Source: Chloroflexota bacterium (GTDB taxonomy: Bacteria; Chloroflexota; Dehalococcoidia; Lucifugimonadales; Lucifugimonadaceae). From it: a DNA stretch of 64,000 bases. The translations under genes were made by a program, and so were the position numbers. Positions 30,173 to 35,710 of the stretch are shown piece after piece. The notes under the pieces were generated by a model, which saw only the letters and a list, made by a program, of their open reading frames with translations, did no database searches and was not told where the DNA came from. Each line of letters begins with the position of its first letter. Positions within the stretch are counted from its first letter, which is position 1. Where the stretch lies: positions 1-64,000 of the forward strand of contig JABIFF010000012.1 of NCBI GenBank assembly GCA_018650845.1. The letters run 5' to 3'.

Positions 30173-30351
30173 AATTTCAGTTCCACCAACAGCATACACG
30201 GGTATTTTTTAGATTCGCCTGTGCAATTCCCGATACCTCGCCTGTTATATCTGGAGTGCTAAAATTCGCCACGTTGCCATTTCTTCAAGTTGAAATCATC
30301 TTGATATCTCTAGGCAGCCCAACTGAAATTCAAGAAAGCTCAGCCCAGCTT

Positions 30352-31323
30352 ATGGCAAACAAGTTCGTTTTTCTTCCGCCGCAATCAGACCTTTTCGACG
30401 AGTGGATTCCACGTCTGCTCGATAGTGCTCCGGGCTGGGAGATCGCAACTCCAACAACTGAGGCAGAAGCTCTAAAAGAACTTCCAGATGCCGACGCCGC
30501 TTACGGCACAATGACTCCTGAGCTAATCGCAGCGGCTCCGAATCTTGGCTGGCTCCAAGCCCCGGCAGCAGCTCCCGCAGCCGGCTACTACTTCGACGAG
30601 TTGATCGCTCACAAAGCAGCGGTCACAAACTTCCGAGGTATCTACAACGATCACATCTCGATCCAGATCCTCGCCTACATTCTCAACTTCACCAAGCATT
30701 ACAACGTTTACCGCGATCAGCAGAATGAACGTAAGTACGAAGTTCTTCAGGATCCCTACCACGATATTTTCTTGCCAGAATCGACCGTGTTGATCGTAGG
30801 TGTCGGCGGAATTGGCGCCGAGACTGCACGACTTTGCAAAGCGGTTGGCATGCACGTGCTTGGAATTGACGCACGACGTGAAGACAAGCCTGAGTGGGTC
30901 GATGACATGTTCACACCCGACCAGCTCGACGATCAGCTTGCTAAGGCCGATTTCGTTGTGCTGACTATCCCTCACACTCCTTCTACTGAAGGACTGTTCG
31001 ATTCGTCGAAATTCGCAATGATGAAGAATTCGGCAAAATTCATCAACATCGGTCGCGGTATGACCACGAAACTAGACGATCTGAACGAAGCGCTTCGATC
31101 AGGTGTGATCGGCGGAGCTGCGCTCGACGTTTACGAAATCGAGCCACTCCCATCCGATCATCCATTGTGGGACGCGCCAAACACGATTCTCACCCCGCAC
31201 ACCGCAGCGGTTGGTGGGGCGAATCTATTGGAACGTCGGTTCGAAATCGTTCTAGACAATTTCCGAAAATTCGCAGCTGGCGAACGGCTTCGAAACGAAG
31301 TAGACAAAGCCAACTGGTTCTAG
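30352..31323 (+). CDS. D-2-hydroxyacid dehydrogenase (NAD-binding)
   Basis: A ~323-residue dehydrogenase. The N-terminal catalytic domain is divergent (LGWLQAPAAAPAAGYYFDELI). The NAD domain carries VLIVGVGGIGAETARLCKAVG. The catalytic Arg/Glu/His set is visible in NIGRGMTTKLDDL, YEIEPLPSDHPLW and TPHTAAVGG. The open frame extends 32 codons upstream, but MANKFVF at 30352 fits the family start. It is close to the second such enzyme at 31631, with a glycine-zipper peptide between them. The substrate is unknown; glyoxylate/hydroxypyruvate-like acids are typical. Confidence 0.87.
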   Translation: MANKFVFLPPQSDLFDEWIPRLLDSAPGWEIATPTTEAEALKELPDADAAYGTMTPELIAAAPNLGWLQAPAAAPAAGYYFDELIAHKAAVTNFRGIYNDHISIQILAYILNFTKHYNVYRDQQNERKYEVLQDPYHDIFLPESTVLIVGVGGIGAETARLCKAVGMHVLGIDARREDKPEWVDDMFTPDQLDDQLAKADFVVLTIPHTPSTEGLFDSSKFAMMKNSAKFINIGRGMTTKLDDLNEALRSGVIGGAALDVYEIEPLPSDHPLWDAPNTILTPHTAAVGGANLLERRFEIVLDNFRKFAAGERLRNEVDKANWF

Positions 31324-31630: not shown

Positions 31631-32620
31631 ATGCCCGGTCAATCACCACCACTCGTGGTTCATATCGATGCCAAGGAATCTTCACTCGAACTTGAGAGAA
31701 AGGCCCTTGCTGGAATCGACTGCGAAATCGTGTCGGTCGCTGCCTCGTCTGAAGGCGAAATCATCGAGGCGGTGAAAGACGCCACGGTAATTCTCAACGA
31801 TCACTCCCCTGTTACTCAGGCGACGATCGACCAGCTAACCAACTGCAAGCTAATCATTCGTTACGGACACGGTTATGACACTGTCGATGTTGATGCTTGC
31901 ACTGAAGCCGGAATCATCGTGACCAACATTGCGGGATCAACTTCAGAAGAGGTTTCCAACCACGCACTTTCGCTATTGATGGCATCGGCGCGTGAACTAA
32001 AACGGCTCGATTTGGCGACTACTTCCGGACGATGGGCAGAGGTCTACTCACGGTCAATTCTCAATCGTATTTATGGTGAGACCGTTGGAATCGTCGGCTT
32101 CGGTTGGATTGGTCGTGCGATGGCTCGCAAGTGCAATGCATTGGGAATGAAAGTGCTGATCAACGATCCGTATGTAGGGGAACATCTGGCTACGGAATAC
32201 GGAGTTGAGTTCGTATCGAAAAACGAGCTGCTAGAGCGGTCCGACTATGTAACGCTTCACATTCCGCATCTCGATGGAACTCATCACTTCATCGATGCGG
32301 ACGCACTCGATCGTATGAAGACCAGTGCATATTTGATCAACACGGCTCGTGGACCGGTTGTCGATGAAATCGCTCTCGTCACAGCAGTCCAGAGTGAACA
32401 GATCGCTGGTGCTGGAATCGATGTGTATGAAGAAGAACCTCTTTCGCCGGACAATCCGATCCTCAAGATGGAAAATGTCATCTGCACTCCGCACGTTGCA
32501 GGTTCGAGCGAACTCGGCTGGGAGACTATCCGACGTCGTGCAGGTGAAGAAGCTGCACGAGTTCTGCGTGGCGAACGACCAACAGTAGTAGTGAATCCTG
32601 AAGTTCTCGGTCGTATTTAG
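31631..32620 (+). CDS. C-terminal-binding-protein-like D-2-hydroxyacid dehydrogenase
   Basis: A 329-residue NAD-dependent dehydrogenase of the SerA/CtBP branch. The NAD motif is VGIVGFGWIGRAMARKC at about 150-166. The active-site Arg is in INTARGPVVDE, the Glu in IDVYEEEPLSPDNP, and the His in CTPHVAGSSELGWE. RYGHGYDTVDVDACTEAGI in the first domain is typical of the group. It has no ACT or ASB domain, so it is not a classical biosynthetic SerA. Partner gene to the dehydrogenase at 30352, with which it shares fold but little sequence. Confidence 0.88.
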   Translation: MPGQSPPLVVHIDAKESSLELERKALAGIDCEIVSVAASSEGEIIEAVKDATVILNDHSPVTQATIDQLTNCKLIIRYGHGYDTVDVDACTEAGIIVTNIAGSTSEEVSNHALSLLMASARELKRLDLATTSGRWAEVYSRSILNRIYGETVGIVGFGWIGRAMARKCNALGMKVLINDPYVGEHLATEYGVEFVSKNELLERSDYVTLHIPHLDGTHHFIDADALDRMKTSAYLINTARGPVVDEIALVTAVQSEQIAGAGIDVYEEEPLSPDNPILKMENVICTPHVAGSSELGWETIRRRAGEEAARVLRGERPTVVVNPEVLGRI

Positions 32621-32636
32621 CGACCCAACCCTGTCA

Positions 32637-32762
32637 TGTCCCCTCGCCTTCGGGAGAGCGCCAGGGTGAGGGTAGATTGTCGCAGCGACCAAGTCATTCG
32701 ACGACGCCCGGAGCTAAACAAAACTGCGACGCAGAGCCGAGTAGTTCGACGACGAGTGCGAC
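32637..32762. repeat. Composite dispersed repeat (C-rich module plus 48-bp-type module)
   Basis: A CCCCTCGCC/GGGAGAG palindrome with CAGGGTGAGGG is followed by the second module, whose core is ACCAAGTCATTCGACGACGC and then CCGGAGCTAAAC. The core repeats in decayed form at 32730-32762. Better copies of the second module are at 33183, 35480 and 41201. Confidence 0.75.
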
Positions 32763-32985
32763 TAACTCTGGGAAACCACTTGCGCCCACTCACGATTCAC
32801 GATTGGGCAACAGACGTTAACTAAAACTGATCACCTGTTTGCGTGGGTCCTCGCAAACCTTCTTTGTCGCATTTCCGTATAATCCGCTAATCGGTCTTGA
32901 CCAAACCCTTAATCGGGCAGGCGGCCGTGGGCAGGAAAACTCTACTGTCCGGAGTTCGATTCCAAGAAGGAGGTGGTCTGTTTTA

Positions 32986-33018
32986 ATGTCTAGTACCAAA
33001 CGAGGTGTCCTACGTTAA
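32986..33018 (+). CDS. Possible 10-residue leader peptide
   Basis: ATG plus nine codons and TAA encode MSSTKRGVLR. Upstream AAGGAGGTG at 32967 is a perfect anti-SD match, but the spacing (12 bases) is long. The last codons lie inside the GAGGTG/CACCTC stem that begins at 33002, so ribosome position would change the fold, as in a leader-peptide attenuator. The next gene (Nudix) starts 175 bases later. It may be a chance ORF. Confidence 0.25.
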   Translation: MSSTKRGVLR

Positions 33019-33049
33019 AGTAGGGCGCCCTACCAGTAGGGCACCTCTA

Positions 33050-33112
33050 GAGTAGAGCCACCCGATCAGCAAACTCCCGTAAAACGGATATGCTGGTCCG
33101 GTGGCTCTACTC
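33050..33112 (+). other. Long three-tier hairpin
   Basis: GAGTAGAGCCACC pairs perfectly with GGTGGCTCTACTC. Inside, GATCAGCA pairs with TGCTGGTC (one G-T), and at the tip CCGT pairs with ACGG around AAA. There is no T-run, so it is not a standard terminator. Confidence 0.7.
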
Positions 33113-33151
33113 GCGTCTGGGGCAACTCCAGATGCAACCTGTCACATTTGT

Positions 33152-33231
33152 CCTCCCCCGGACCGGGGGAGTTAGAGGGGGAGATTGCGACGCGTGACCA
33201 AGTCATCCGATGACGCCCGGAGCGAAATCAC
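33152..33231. repeat. Composite dispersed repeat overlapping the Nudix gene start
   Basis: The C-rich palindrome CTCCCCCGGACCGGGGGAG, then TTAGAGGGGGAG, then the second module GCGTGACCAAGTCATCCGAT and GACGCCCGGAGC. The second module is translated as the first ~13 residues of the Nudix protein. Confidence 0.85.
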
Positions 33232-33721
33232 GAGACATTTCACGGCTACCGGCTTCGTCGTTCACGGCGATTCCACCCTGCTTCATTGGCATAAAAAAGT
33301 TCAGGAGTGGTTACCGCCCGGTGGTCACATCGACGACAACGAAGACCCTGTACAAACCACTCTTCGCGAGATCAAAGAAGAAACCGGCTTCAACGTTGAA
33401 ATCGTGCCGACTCAATCAGAACTAATCATCGGTAACCTCGAGCAAGTGACGGCTCCTCACAGCATCATGATTGAGAACGTTGTCGACAAAAAGCACGGCG
33501 AGCATCAGCACATCGATCACATCTACTTCACTCGGCTTATTGGCGATGAGACAACTGCCACCGACGAACATCCCGACGCCAGTGTCGGATGGCTTTGGGC
33601 GTCGCTCGACGATCTTGCCAGAAGCAAAAAGTTCGAAACACCTTCAGGCGAACTCAGGACACCACCCGAAGACGTGATCAAGCTGGGTTCAGCAGCAATT
33701 CGGCACGTATCTGGCGCTTAG
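33194..33721 (+). CDS. Nudix hydrolase
   Basis: A ~175-residue Nudix protein that hydrolyses a nucleoside-diphosphate-linked compound. The Nudix box G-x5-E-x7-REUxEExGU is readable from GGHIDDNEDPVQTTLREIKEETGFNV. Before it comes FTATGFVVHGDSTLLHWHKK, the usual first strand. The residues ahead of that (VTKSSDDARSE) are encoded by a dispersed repeat that also provides the start codon and a GGGGGAG SD-like stretch ten bases before GTG 33194. TTG 33185 is an alternative start. The substrate is not predictable. Confidence 0.85.
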   Translation: MTKSSDDARSEITRHFTATGFVVHGDSTLLHWHKKVQEWLPPGGHIDDNEDPVQTTLREIKEETGFNVEIVPTQSELIIGNLEQVTAPHSIMIENVVDKKHGEHQHIDHIYFTRLIGDETTATDEHPDASVGWLWASLDDLARSKKFETPSGELRTPPEDVIKLGSAAIRHVSGA

Positions 33722-34538: not shown

Positions 34539-35710
34539 AACGAATCGGGATGCCGACCAACCGCGGGGCCTTCACCCATCACGTTAAGCAGCCGAGCTTT
34601 CATCCAGTGGTAAGCCGGTTCTGCCTTTGAATTTCCGTACCACTTCAACGCCTGCAGTCCCACGTGTAATTGACACACCAGCCAGCGTTCATCGAGACCC
34701 GGCACATCCCGCCCAATCGAAGCATATTGCTCCACAAACAACTGCTTGAGTGGGAGGTTCGACGCGTAAAGCTCGGTTCTAGCGCCATCGTACAAATGAT
34801 CCCCAATGATCGAATTGTCCCAATCCAATACAGCCGAAACCTCATCGCCAATCACCAGCGTATTGTCGTAGCCGAAATCGATGTGAACGACAGATCGCCC
34901 GACCTCGGGCAACGCTTCCAAAGCCGACATCATCCGTTCCGAAAAGTGCTCGAAAACGTCTGCTTCCAGAAAACCGCCACGATCGTCAAACCAATCTCTT
35001 CGTCGATCGTAAAAGCTGCCAGGCTCGCGTGAAAACGTCTCTTCTGTGAGGTACTCAGACCACGATTCACGCTGCCCATTGCCCTCGTCATTCATCCAGC
35101 CGTAACCAGTCGTATCCGAAATATCGATCTCCGAAATCTTGACCATCGCTTCAACCGCAGCCGGAATCAAATGCCGACGCCCCTCGTCTTCAAGTTCGCC
35201 CATGTGCTCGCCCGGCATCAAATCGCAAATGGCGTAGGCAAGGAGATATGAATCGGCAGAATGCTTCGACCTCTCGTCATCTGGAAGATTTCCGACCGCC
35301 ATCGGAACTTCGCCAGACGCCAACAGTCGAGGCGTAGGCAATCCAACCGCCGCCGCCCGAGGAGCGATAAACCGATCCTTCGTCACCGCTCCGCCATTCT
35401 CTTTGGCGACGAACCGAGCTACGTACTTCCCCGGTTCAACCGGCGTGTCCTCCCCCGGATCGGGGGAGCTAGAGGGGGAGACTGCAGCGGCGACCAAGTC
35501 ATCCGATGACGCCCGGAACAAATCACGCACCTCAAACCCAAACACGCTCGAAACCTGCCCGTGCTCGAACTGCGAAATATCACTAACCGCACCGCCCGCC
35601 CATTCTTCAAGAAACGAGGTCAGTTCAGCGATATCCAGTTCAGGTCGAAACAAATTTGCGAACTCCGTAAAACGTTCAACATCATCATGCTGAAGCCTGT
35701 CCCGTATCAA
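34535..35710 (-). CDS. APH-like phosphotransferase carrying an in-frame repeat insertion
   Basis: A 391-residue kinase-fold phosphotransferase. The catalytic loop is VVHIDFGYDNTLV, and the metal aspartate is in AVLDWDNSIIGD. The N-lobe strands EHGQVSSVFGFEV and GKYVARFV are interrupted at residues ~61-88 by RASSDDLVAAAVSPSSSP and DPGED. This is the antisense translation of the dispersed repeat at 35448-35529. The insert falls at the beta-turn between the strands and keeps the frame, so the enzyme may still fold. The substrate is unknown, and nothing points to antibiotic resistance. Confidence 0.82.
   Translation of the reverse strand: MIRDRLQHDDVERFTEFANLFRPELDIAELTSFLEEWAGGAVSDISQFEHGQVSSVFGFEVRDLFRASSDDLVAAAVSPSSSPDPGEDTPVEPGKYVARFVAKENGGAVTKDRFIAPRAAAVGLPTPRLLASGEVPMAVGNLPDDERSKHSADSYLLAYAICDLMPGEHMGELEDEGRRHLIPAAVEAMVKISEIDISDTTGYGWMNDEGNGQRESWSEYLTEETFSREPGSFYDRRRDWFDDRGGFLEADVFEHFSERMMSALEALPEVGRSVVHIDFGYDNTLVIGDEVSAVLDWDNSIIGDHLYDGARTELYASNLPLKQLFVEQYASIGRDVPGLDERWLVCQLHVGLQALKWYGNSKAEPAYHWMKARLLNVMGEGPAVGRHPDSF
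35448..35529. repeat. Composite dispersed repeat inside the APH-like gene
   Basis: TCCTCCCCCGGATCGGGGGAG, then CTAGAGGGGGAG, then the second module (CGACCAAGTCATCCGATGAC, GCCCGGAAC). It is close to the copy at 33152 and in the same relative orientation on the plus strand. It lies wholly within coding sequence of the minus-strand gene. Confidence 0.88.

Follow-up and report, generated by a model that had tools for sequence, protein, structure and literature searches.

A single-copy structured RNA gene with a conserved ten-codon reading frame in Chloroflexota bacteria

Short-ORF attenuators are known as parts of operons. In the trp- and his-type attenuators, and in the topAI-yjhQ upstream ORF (PMC12121999), a Shine-Dalgarno (SD) sequence precedes a short ORF whose end lies inside a helix, and leader-peptide attenuators combine helices that compete around the stop codon with a terminator hairpin. 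Dual-function or peptide-coding bacterial small RNAs (sRNAs) are small free-standing transcripts in which an ORF and a structure are both conserved (PMC5521070). The downstream-peptide motif of cyanobacteria, or yfr6, of about 250 nt and once taken as non-coding, carries a conserved short ORF behind a structured 5' domain (RF01704; PMC2864571). The locus described here resembles each of these in part and is conserved in a largely uncultured group of bacteria.

The locus lies within the first 64,000 nucleotides of contig JABIFF010000012.1 of a Chloroflexota bacterium (assembly GCA_018650845.1, forward strand), a stretch referred to throughout as the window. A preliminary description had proposed a candidate structured RNA of no known family in an apparently gene-free interval. 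The structured single-copy element at about 32878-33117 is genuine, a small RNA gene of Chloroflexota that had not been catalogued before, and its existence, structure and ORF conservation emerge from sequence comparison. With a free energy of -119.3 kcal/mol, the plus-strand fold of 32880-33150 has a z-score of -7.3 relative to dinucleotide shuffles, which bears out the proposal that the pairing is far beyond chance. The minus strand also folds strongly (z = -5.2 against dinucleotide shuffles), as expected of inverted repeats; the plus strand is taken as sense because the promoter, the SD, the ORF and the U-tracts of relatives all agree. Conserved sequence extends from about 32850 to about 33117 in the genus alignment, and everything outside these limits is excluded from the element for want of conservation there, including a TCTGG/CCAGA stem (about 33115-33134) that had been counted as part of the structure. 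The element occurs once in its own genome, which disposes of the suspicion that its stems belong to a dispersed repeat, and a search of a phage collection gave no match to it. A dispersed 23-nt repeat, AGTCATCCGATGACGCCCGGAGC, does flank the element, at 32692-32714, 33201-33223 and 35497-35519 (three matches against none expected); its copies sit in longer repeat units on either side, and one of them overlaps the annotated-like 5' end of the following NUDIX ORF.

None of 4227 Rfam 15 families matched the window at its gathering cut-off, in keeping with the earlier impression of novelty, and at E values up to 10 only four weak, unrelated matches appeared. The CC2171 sRNA of Caulobacter (RF01867) was rejected at 11.2 bits (E 7.2) against a gathering score of 75; the GAAAGGAGGUGAUC stretch of its model aligns with the SD region of the element and the rest has no match. 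Neither tmRNA (RF00023) nor RNase P RNA (RF00010) matches at the locus, and the genus has both elsewhere, above cut-off in 12 of 19 genomes for tmRNA and found in 17 of 19 for RNase P. A literature search, with preprints and most subscription journals outside its scope, returned no paper on such an RNA in Chloroflexota.

The element begins with its own promoter. The TATAAT that had been remarked upon just upstream of the structure, at 32878-32883, is its -10 box and is kept in relatives, in which the distance from TATAAT to the SD is nearly fixed. At about the -35 position lies a genus-conserved sequence, CAAACCTTCTTT (32854-32865), that departs from the TTGACA consensus, and a promoter scan of the window for a consensus -35 found none at the element; in relatives from other genera and classes TTGACA stands 16-17 nt upstream of TATAAT. 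The 5' domain that follows had been drawn as closed by GACCA/TGGTC, a helix that would pair with the SD and that shows no covariation. From 15 genus sequences RNAalifold gives two other stems instead: P1, CGGTC 32892-32896 with GGCCG 32923-32927, in which two pairs vary yet stay paired and one pair is broken in two sequences, and hairpin P2, TGGGCAG 32928-32934 with CTGTCCG 32945-32951, which encloses the conserved loop GAAAACTCTA, shows compensatory changes at two pairs and is paired in all 15 sequences. In 21 order-level elements the 5' domain is likewise closed by a stem, 5-9 bp long and immediately 5' of the SD. Its best length averages 7.5 bp, compared with 4.8 in shuffles (the maximum among 300 being 5.8); the 21 elements have 17 distinct stems, and all six aligned pairs have changed on both sides. 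Inside this order-level domain a GAUGAMAGYUUA-like stretch is conserved (for example in L277, L278 and L208), possibly as a site for a ligand or protein.

Between the 5' domain and the ORF, AAGAAGGAGGTGGTC is invariant across the genus sequences. The SD itself, AAGGAGGTGGTC at 32967-32978, is likewise invariant in the genus and pairs over 12 nt, with one G-U, with the usual 16S 3' end, GATCACCTCCTT, which is the general form rather than a reading from the host genome. Its AAGGAGG is kept in the family alignment and is the most constant stretch of alignments A2 and A4. Structure prediction gives the SD an intermediate openness that varies among relatives (median 0.37 unpaired), with no clear on or off state.

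What had been described as gene-free holds a conserved ORF of ten codons at 32986-33018, ATGTCTAGTACCAAACGAGGTGTCCTACGTTAA, which encodes MSSTKRGVLR behind this perfect SD. Within the genus its stop is TAA, TAG or TGA at a fixed place, and the last residue varies. An ORF is present at this position in all relatives examined, with 10-12 codons in nearly all of them and in each of 44 listed elements from the family and the first order-level set. Of 26 group representatives, 26 have an ORF of 7-20 codons after the SD, where dinucleotide shuffles lead one to expect 4.8. Starts vary among ATG, GTG and TTG and stops among TAA, TAG and TGA, and changes in length are multiples of three that keep the frame, so that the element has the conserved ORF under frame selection by which peptide-coding or dual-function sRNAs are recognized. 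In genus g7 the peptide is MSDSTNGGSLL, one codon longer than in the window, and in other families of the order it is typically MDSSSRRCSR-like, with a TTG start and a TAG stop. Among the order-level ten-codon ORFs the start is TTG in 19 of 19, and serine codons 3-4 are almost always AGY; the start region there may be constrained in its nucleotides as well as in what it encodes. The 3' half of the ORF forms one arm of the central hairpin, so that peptide conservation in this half is inseparable from conservation of the RNA; its amino acids follow the pairing, and no peptide selection is claimed for it. A conserved SD-led ORF that is itself an arm of the central hairpin makes it very probable that the RNA is translated.

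The central hairpin pairs the end of the ORF, strand 1 (GAGGTGTCCTAC, 33002-33013), with strand 3 (GTAGGGCACCTC, 33036-33047) over 12 bp, and strand 3 contains an anti-SD-like CACCTC. In alignment A4 it is a 13-pair helix with nine pairs changed on both sides and 93.5% of cells paired. Right after the stop codon a palindrome, GTAGGGCGCCCTAC (33020-33033), forms a small inner hairpin; most genera of the family have GGGCGCC or GGCGCC here, and two have GGGTACC. In genus g2 (L194-L199) the loop of the central hairpin contains some 60 extra bases. The GAGGTG/CACCTC unit recognized earlier thus exists, at 33002-33047, but the three-way arrangement with two hairpins then drawn for it is not the favoured fold: the 12-bp hairpin with its small inner hairpin comes out about 13 kcal/mol better than that alternative, which was built by hand and not optimised.

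Competition between helices is a property of the other families of the order. In 21 elements from 16 families strand 1 is again the end of the ORF (AGGUGUUC-like) and strand 3 reads GRRCACCU, and a further strand 2, AGGUGUUC, lies directly 3' of the UAG stop. Strands 2 and 3 can pair at seven or eight of eight positions in 21 of 21 elements, and strands 1 and 3 at seven or eight of eight in 20 of 21, with true compensations. Strand 3 has a purine at both positions that face a U of strand 2 in all 21, even where strand 1 is unpaired there, which favours the view that both helices are real and mutually exclusive. In the genus of the window GGGCGCC has replaced this strand 2, and the alternative helix is weak, its hand-built fold being the worse by the margin given above; only the ORF-arm hairpin is evident there, and the case for a possible helix switch comes from the order-level families.

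The element ends in a 63-nt terminator-like hairpin (33050-33112), confirmed as first described, with its 13-bp outer stem at 33050-33062/33100-33112; 19 of its 21 pairs in A4 are changed on both sides. It contains a C.C mismatch (33063/33099) that is conserved in the genus and, within CCACC-C-GG / CC-C-GGTGG, is kept family-wide (L161, L163, L212, L213 and others, with G045 as the exception), even in AT-rich g10, where nearly all other stem bases differ. No U-tract follows the hairpin in the window's genus, which weakens the case for termination before the NUDIX gene there. Relatives that do have a U-tract 3' of the hairpin include genera g7 and g2 as well as members of other families; in g7 TTTTTT follows the last hairpin in three of five loci read, a textbook terminator, and many order-level elements end in a hairpin and a T-run.

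Covariation, which had been proposed as a check on the structure, was assessed on an alignment of 19 sequences, drawn from nine genera of the family plus two further families and aligned with MAFFT rather than fitted to the structure, the structure being derived from the same sequences. Pairing holds in 95.1% of its cells, and both partners have changed in 28 of the 34 pairs. The covariation score of 0.568 compares with 0.277 after shuffling and 0.11-0.15 when partners are slid by one to three columns (up to 0.151 at -3). The idea of a new structured RNA therefore holds in that the family is new, covaries, has a promoter and is single-copy, but not in its picture of a purely non-coding RNA, which missed the SD-led ORF.

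Blast detected the element in 17 of the 19 genus genomes, in one of which a contig end cuts it. In the other two (G005 and G012) the contig opens with the NUDIX gene, at base 2 or 3, which would put the element off the assembly, and true absence was rejected for both. Genus g7 was first reached by blast of the element core over the family, and the elements of g3, g9, g10, g11 and g12 were found in the regions upstream of NUDIX orthologs. Covariance model R1 recovered the element in 53 of 76 family genomes, and the broader model R2 in 107 of 250 order genomes and 37 of 97 genera. Genera g4, g5 and g6 (G027-G043) have small genomes (0.7-1.5 Mb) in which no element was found, and most of them keep the NUDIX gene; the loss appears to be lineage-specific. 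Order-level matches in G459, G407 and G565 look different and were left out of the support. In other Chloroflexota classes GAAAGGAGGTGATG is followed by an ORF beginning MDSS (MDSSIKPSAVASLLK, MDSSHCCPSIETSCTEVTVC or MDSSSASRHALSMCIHLVPVA, each ending in a stop), with stems and terminators. Because some weak model matches at similar E-values are spurious, the MDSS-type elements of family f129 are regarded as likely homologues of the window's RNA, and those of f125, f143, f144 and f163 as no more than candidates. Matches L253, L255 and L267 and the partial matches in G682 and G755 were rejected as having no SD-led ORF or no full match, and pattern matches L323, L327, L332, L337 and L338 were judged spurious likewise; a reversed-pattern control also gives matches in several genomes. 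Named contigs of g7 belong to Dehalococcoidia/Chloroflexi MAGs, and the host group is, we presume, probably the marine SAR202.

In the window the element is followed on the same strand by a putative NUDIX hydrolase ORF (33185-33721), a context outside the element that is assigned by its GGH...REIKEETGF motif. At every readable locus of the genus a D-2-hydroxyacid dehydrogenase-like gene and the NUDIX gene flank the element, all on the same strand, the NUDIX gene being downstream. In the window two adjoining dehydrogenase-like genes stand upstream (30256-31323 and 31631-32620); this order is kept in many genus genomes, and some of the stretches read have one copy only. Taken by itself, such an arrangement would suit a 5' leader of the NUDIX gene, a cis-acting leader-peptide attenuator in which the mini-ORF controls read-through of the terminal hairpin. 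NUDIX is indeed the next gene on the same strand in the window's genus, in g3, g7, g9, g10 and g11 and in one g12 genome, and a short ORF with competing helices and a terminator is the classic attenuator layout; an SD-led short ORF upstream of a terminator-like hairpin is present, without a U-tract in the genus. A regulated gene downstream in the same direction is not constant among the members. In g8 a convergent gene comes right after the element and separates it from NUDIX; in g2 two other genes follow, which look like a nucleotidyltransferase/HEPN-like pair, and NUDIX is elsewhere; in G075 NUDIX is on a different contig. The next gene is also convergent in families f4 and f10 and in G197 and G359, and by simple longest-ORF calls it is convergent in 17 of 22 further order-level loci. 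The NUDIX gene occurs without a detected element in g4, g5 and g6, and the spacing between the two is not conserved and contains inserted repeats. Because the downstream gene in relatives is convergent, different or distant, the element is regarded as a free-standing gene; a NUDIX leader is rejected as its general role, and the attenuator reading is unlikely, whereas a side effect on NUDIX in the window's genus is possible. As judged from their sequences, the elements of other genera and families retain a promoter and a hairpin or terminator of their own. In g2 the element lies about 80 nt upstream of the pair just mentioned.

The reading that we favour, with somewhat more confidence than doubt, is that of a free-standing translated regulatory RNA in which a ribosome reading the mini-ORF switches the helices. 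Comparison supports the promoter, the structure, the ORF and the order-level competing helices; transcription, translation, switching and function we infer. The small RNA, about 230 nt long here and about 110-165 nt in most of the order's other families, would be driven by its own promoter, and its 3' hairpin would act as a terminator in many relatives. The strong SD would drive translation of the 10-12 codon ORF, the second half of which is predicted to form an arm of the long hairpin, with the stop codon in the hairpin loop. A ribosome reading the ORF would melt this hairpin and free the 3' arm with its anti-SD-like CACCUC; in other families of the order a second arm, the AGGUGUUC after UAG, may capture the 3' arm instead, so that the position of the ribosome would decide between two mutually exclusive helices. 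Translation of the mini-ORF would in this way switch the fold, and probably also the activity of the RNA or its own initiation, and the freed CACCUC arm might bind either the SD of the same RNA or other mRNAs. Taken together, the comparison suggests a widespread RNA with a fold that is changed by translating ribosomes. A much bolder extension, which we offer as speculative and consider unlikely, is a phylum-wide free-standing translation sensor with a mini-ORF of 10-20 codons, in which the anti-SD-like strand released by ribosomes would act on its own start site and in trans on mRNAs or 30S subunits, and would report translational capacity without a downstream gene.

The remaining explanations differ in what they take the product to be. 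If the RNA is a micro-mRNA, what matters is the peptide that it encodes (MSSTKRGVLR here, MDSS... elsewhere), and the structure would serve only to adjust its synthesis or stability. The strong SD and the conserved start, stop and frame speak for this, as does an N-terminal MDSS common to families and classes of the phylum, the remainder of the peptide differing; yet the second half varies freely between genera with its codons tied to the stem, and the near-constant use of AGY for serine at order level means that even DSS may reflect a nucleotide constraint. We consider this reading improbable, though not strikingly so. The 12-nt pairing of the genus SD with the 16S 3' end, and the constancy of AAGGAGG in A2 and A4, could instead point to a non-coding RNA that docks on the 30S subunit through its SD-like sequence, the ORF being incidental. 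Survival of start, frame and stop through indels and codon changes, together with the excess of ORFs over shuffled expectation, makes this very unlikely. A mobile repeat or a chance fold, which the strong inverted repeats and the flanking 23-nt repeat might bring to mind, is already refuted by single copy and covariation, and also sits badly with a neighbourhood kept within the genus and an order-wide distribution; we give it practically no credence.

Set beside the systems described at the outset, the element has the machinery of the short-ORF attenuators, an SD, a mini-ORF, helices meeting at the stop codon and a terminator, formed here into a gene of its own. Like the trp/his-type attenuators and the topAI-yjhQ ORF it has an SD and a short ORF with its end inside a helix, and like leader-peptide attenuators it has competing helices around the stop, at order level, and a terminator hairpin in many relatives; it differs from them in having no constant downstream gene, the next gene often being convergent, no run of a single amino acid in the peptide and, in the genus, no U-tract. 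With the dual-function sRNAs it shares a small, predicted free-standing transcript with a conserved ORF and structure, but its ORF has only 10-12 codons and is itself half of the main helix, and it is conserved across the order and more loosely in other classes of the phylum, in one copy, while matching no Rfam family. With yfr6 it shares a conserved short ORF behind a structured 5' domain; its sequence and structure are different, again with no Rfam match. It would provide the largely uncultured Chloroflexota, here marine Dehalococcoidia, with a lineage-wide small RNA open to experiment, and it contributes an ORF of ten codons, far below annotation limits, that has strong comparative support. 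If translation toggles its fold, it would offer a compact example, accessible to testing, of regulation of an RNA through its own translation.
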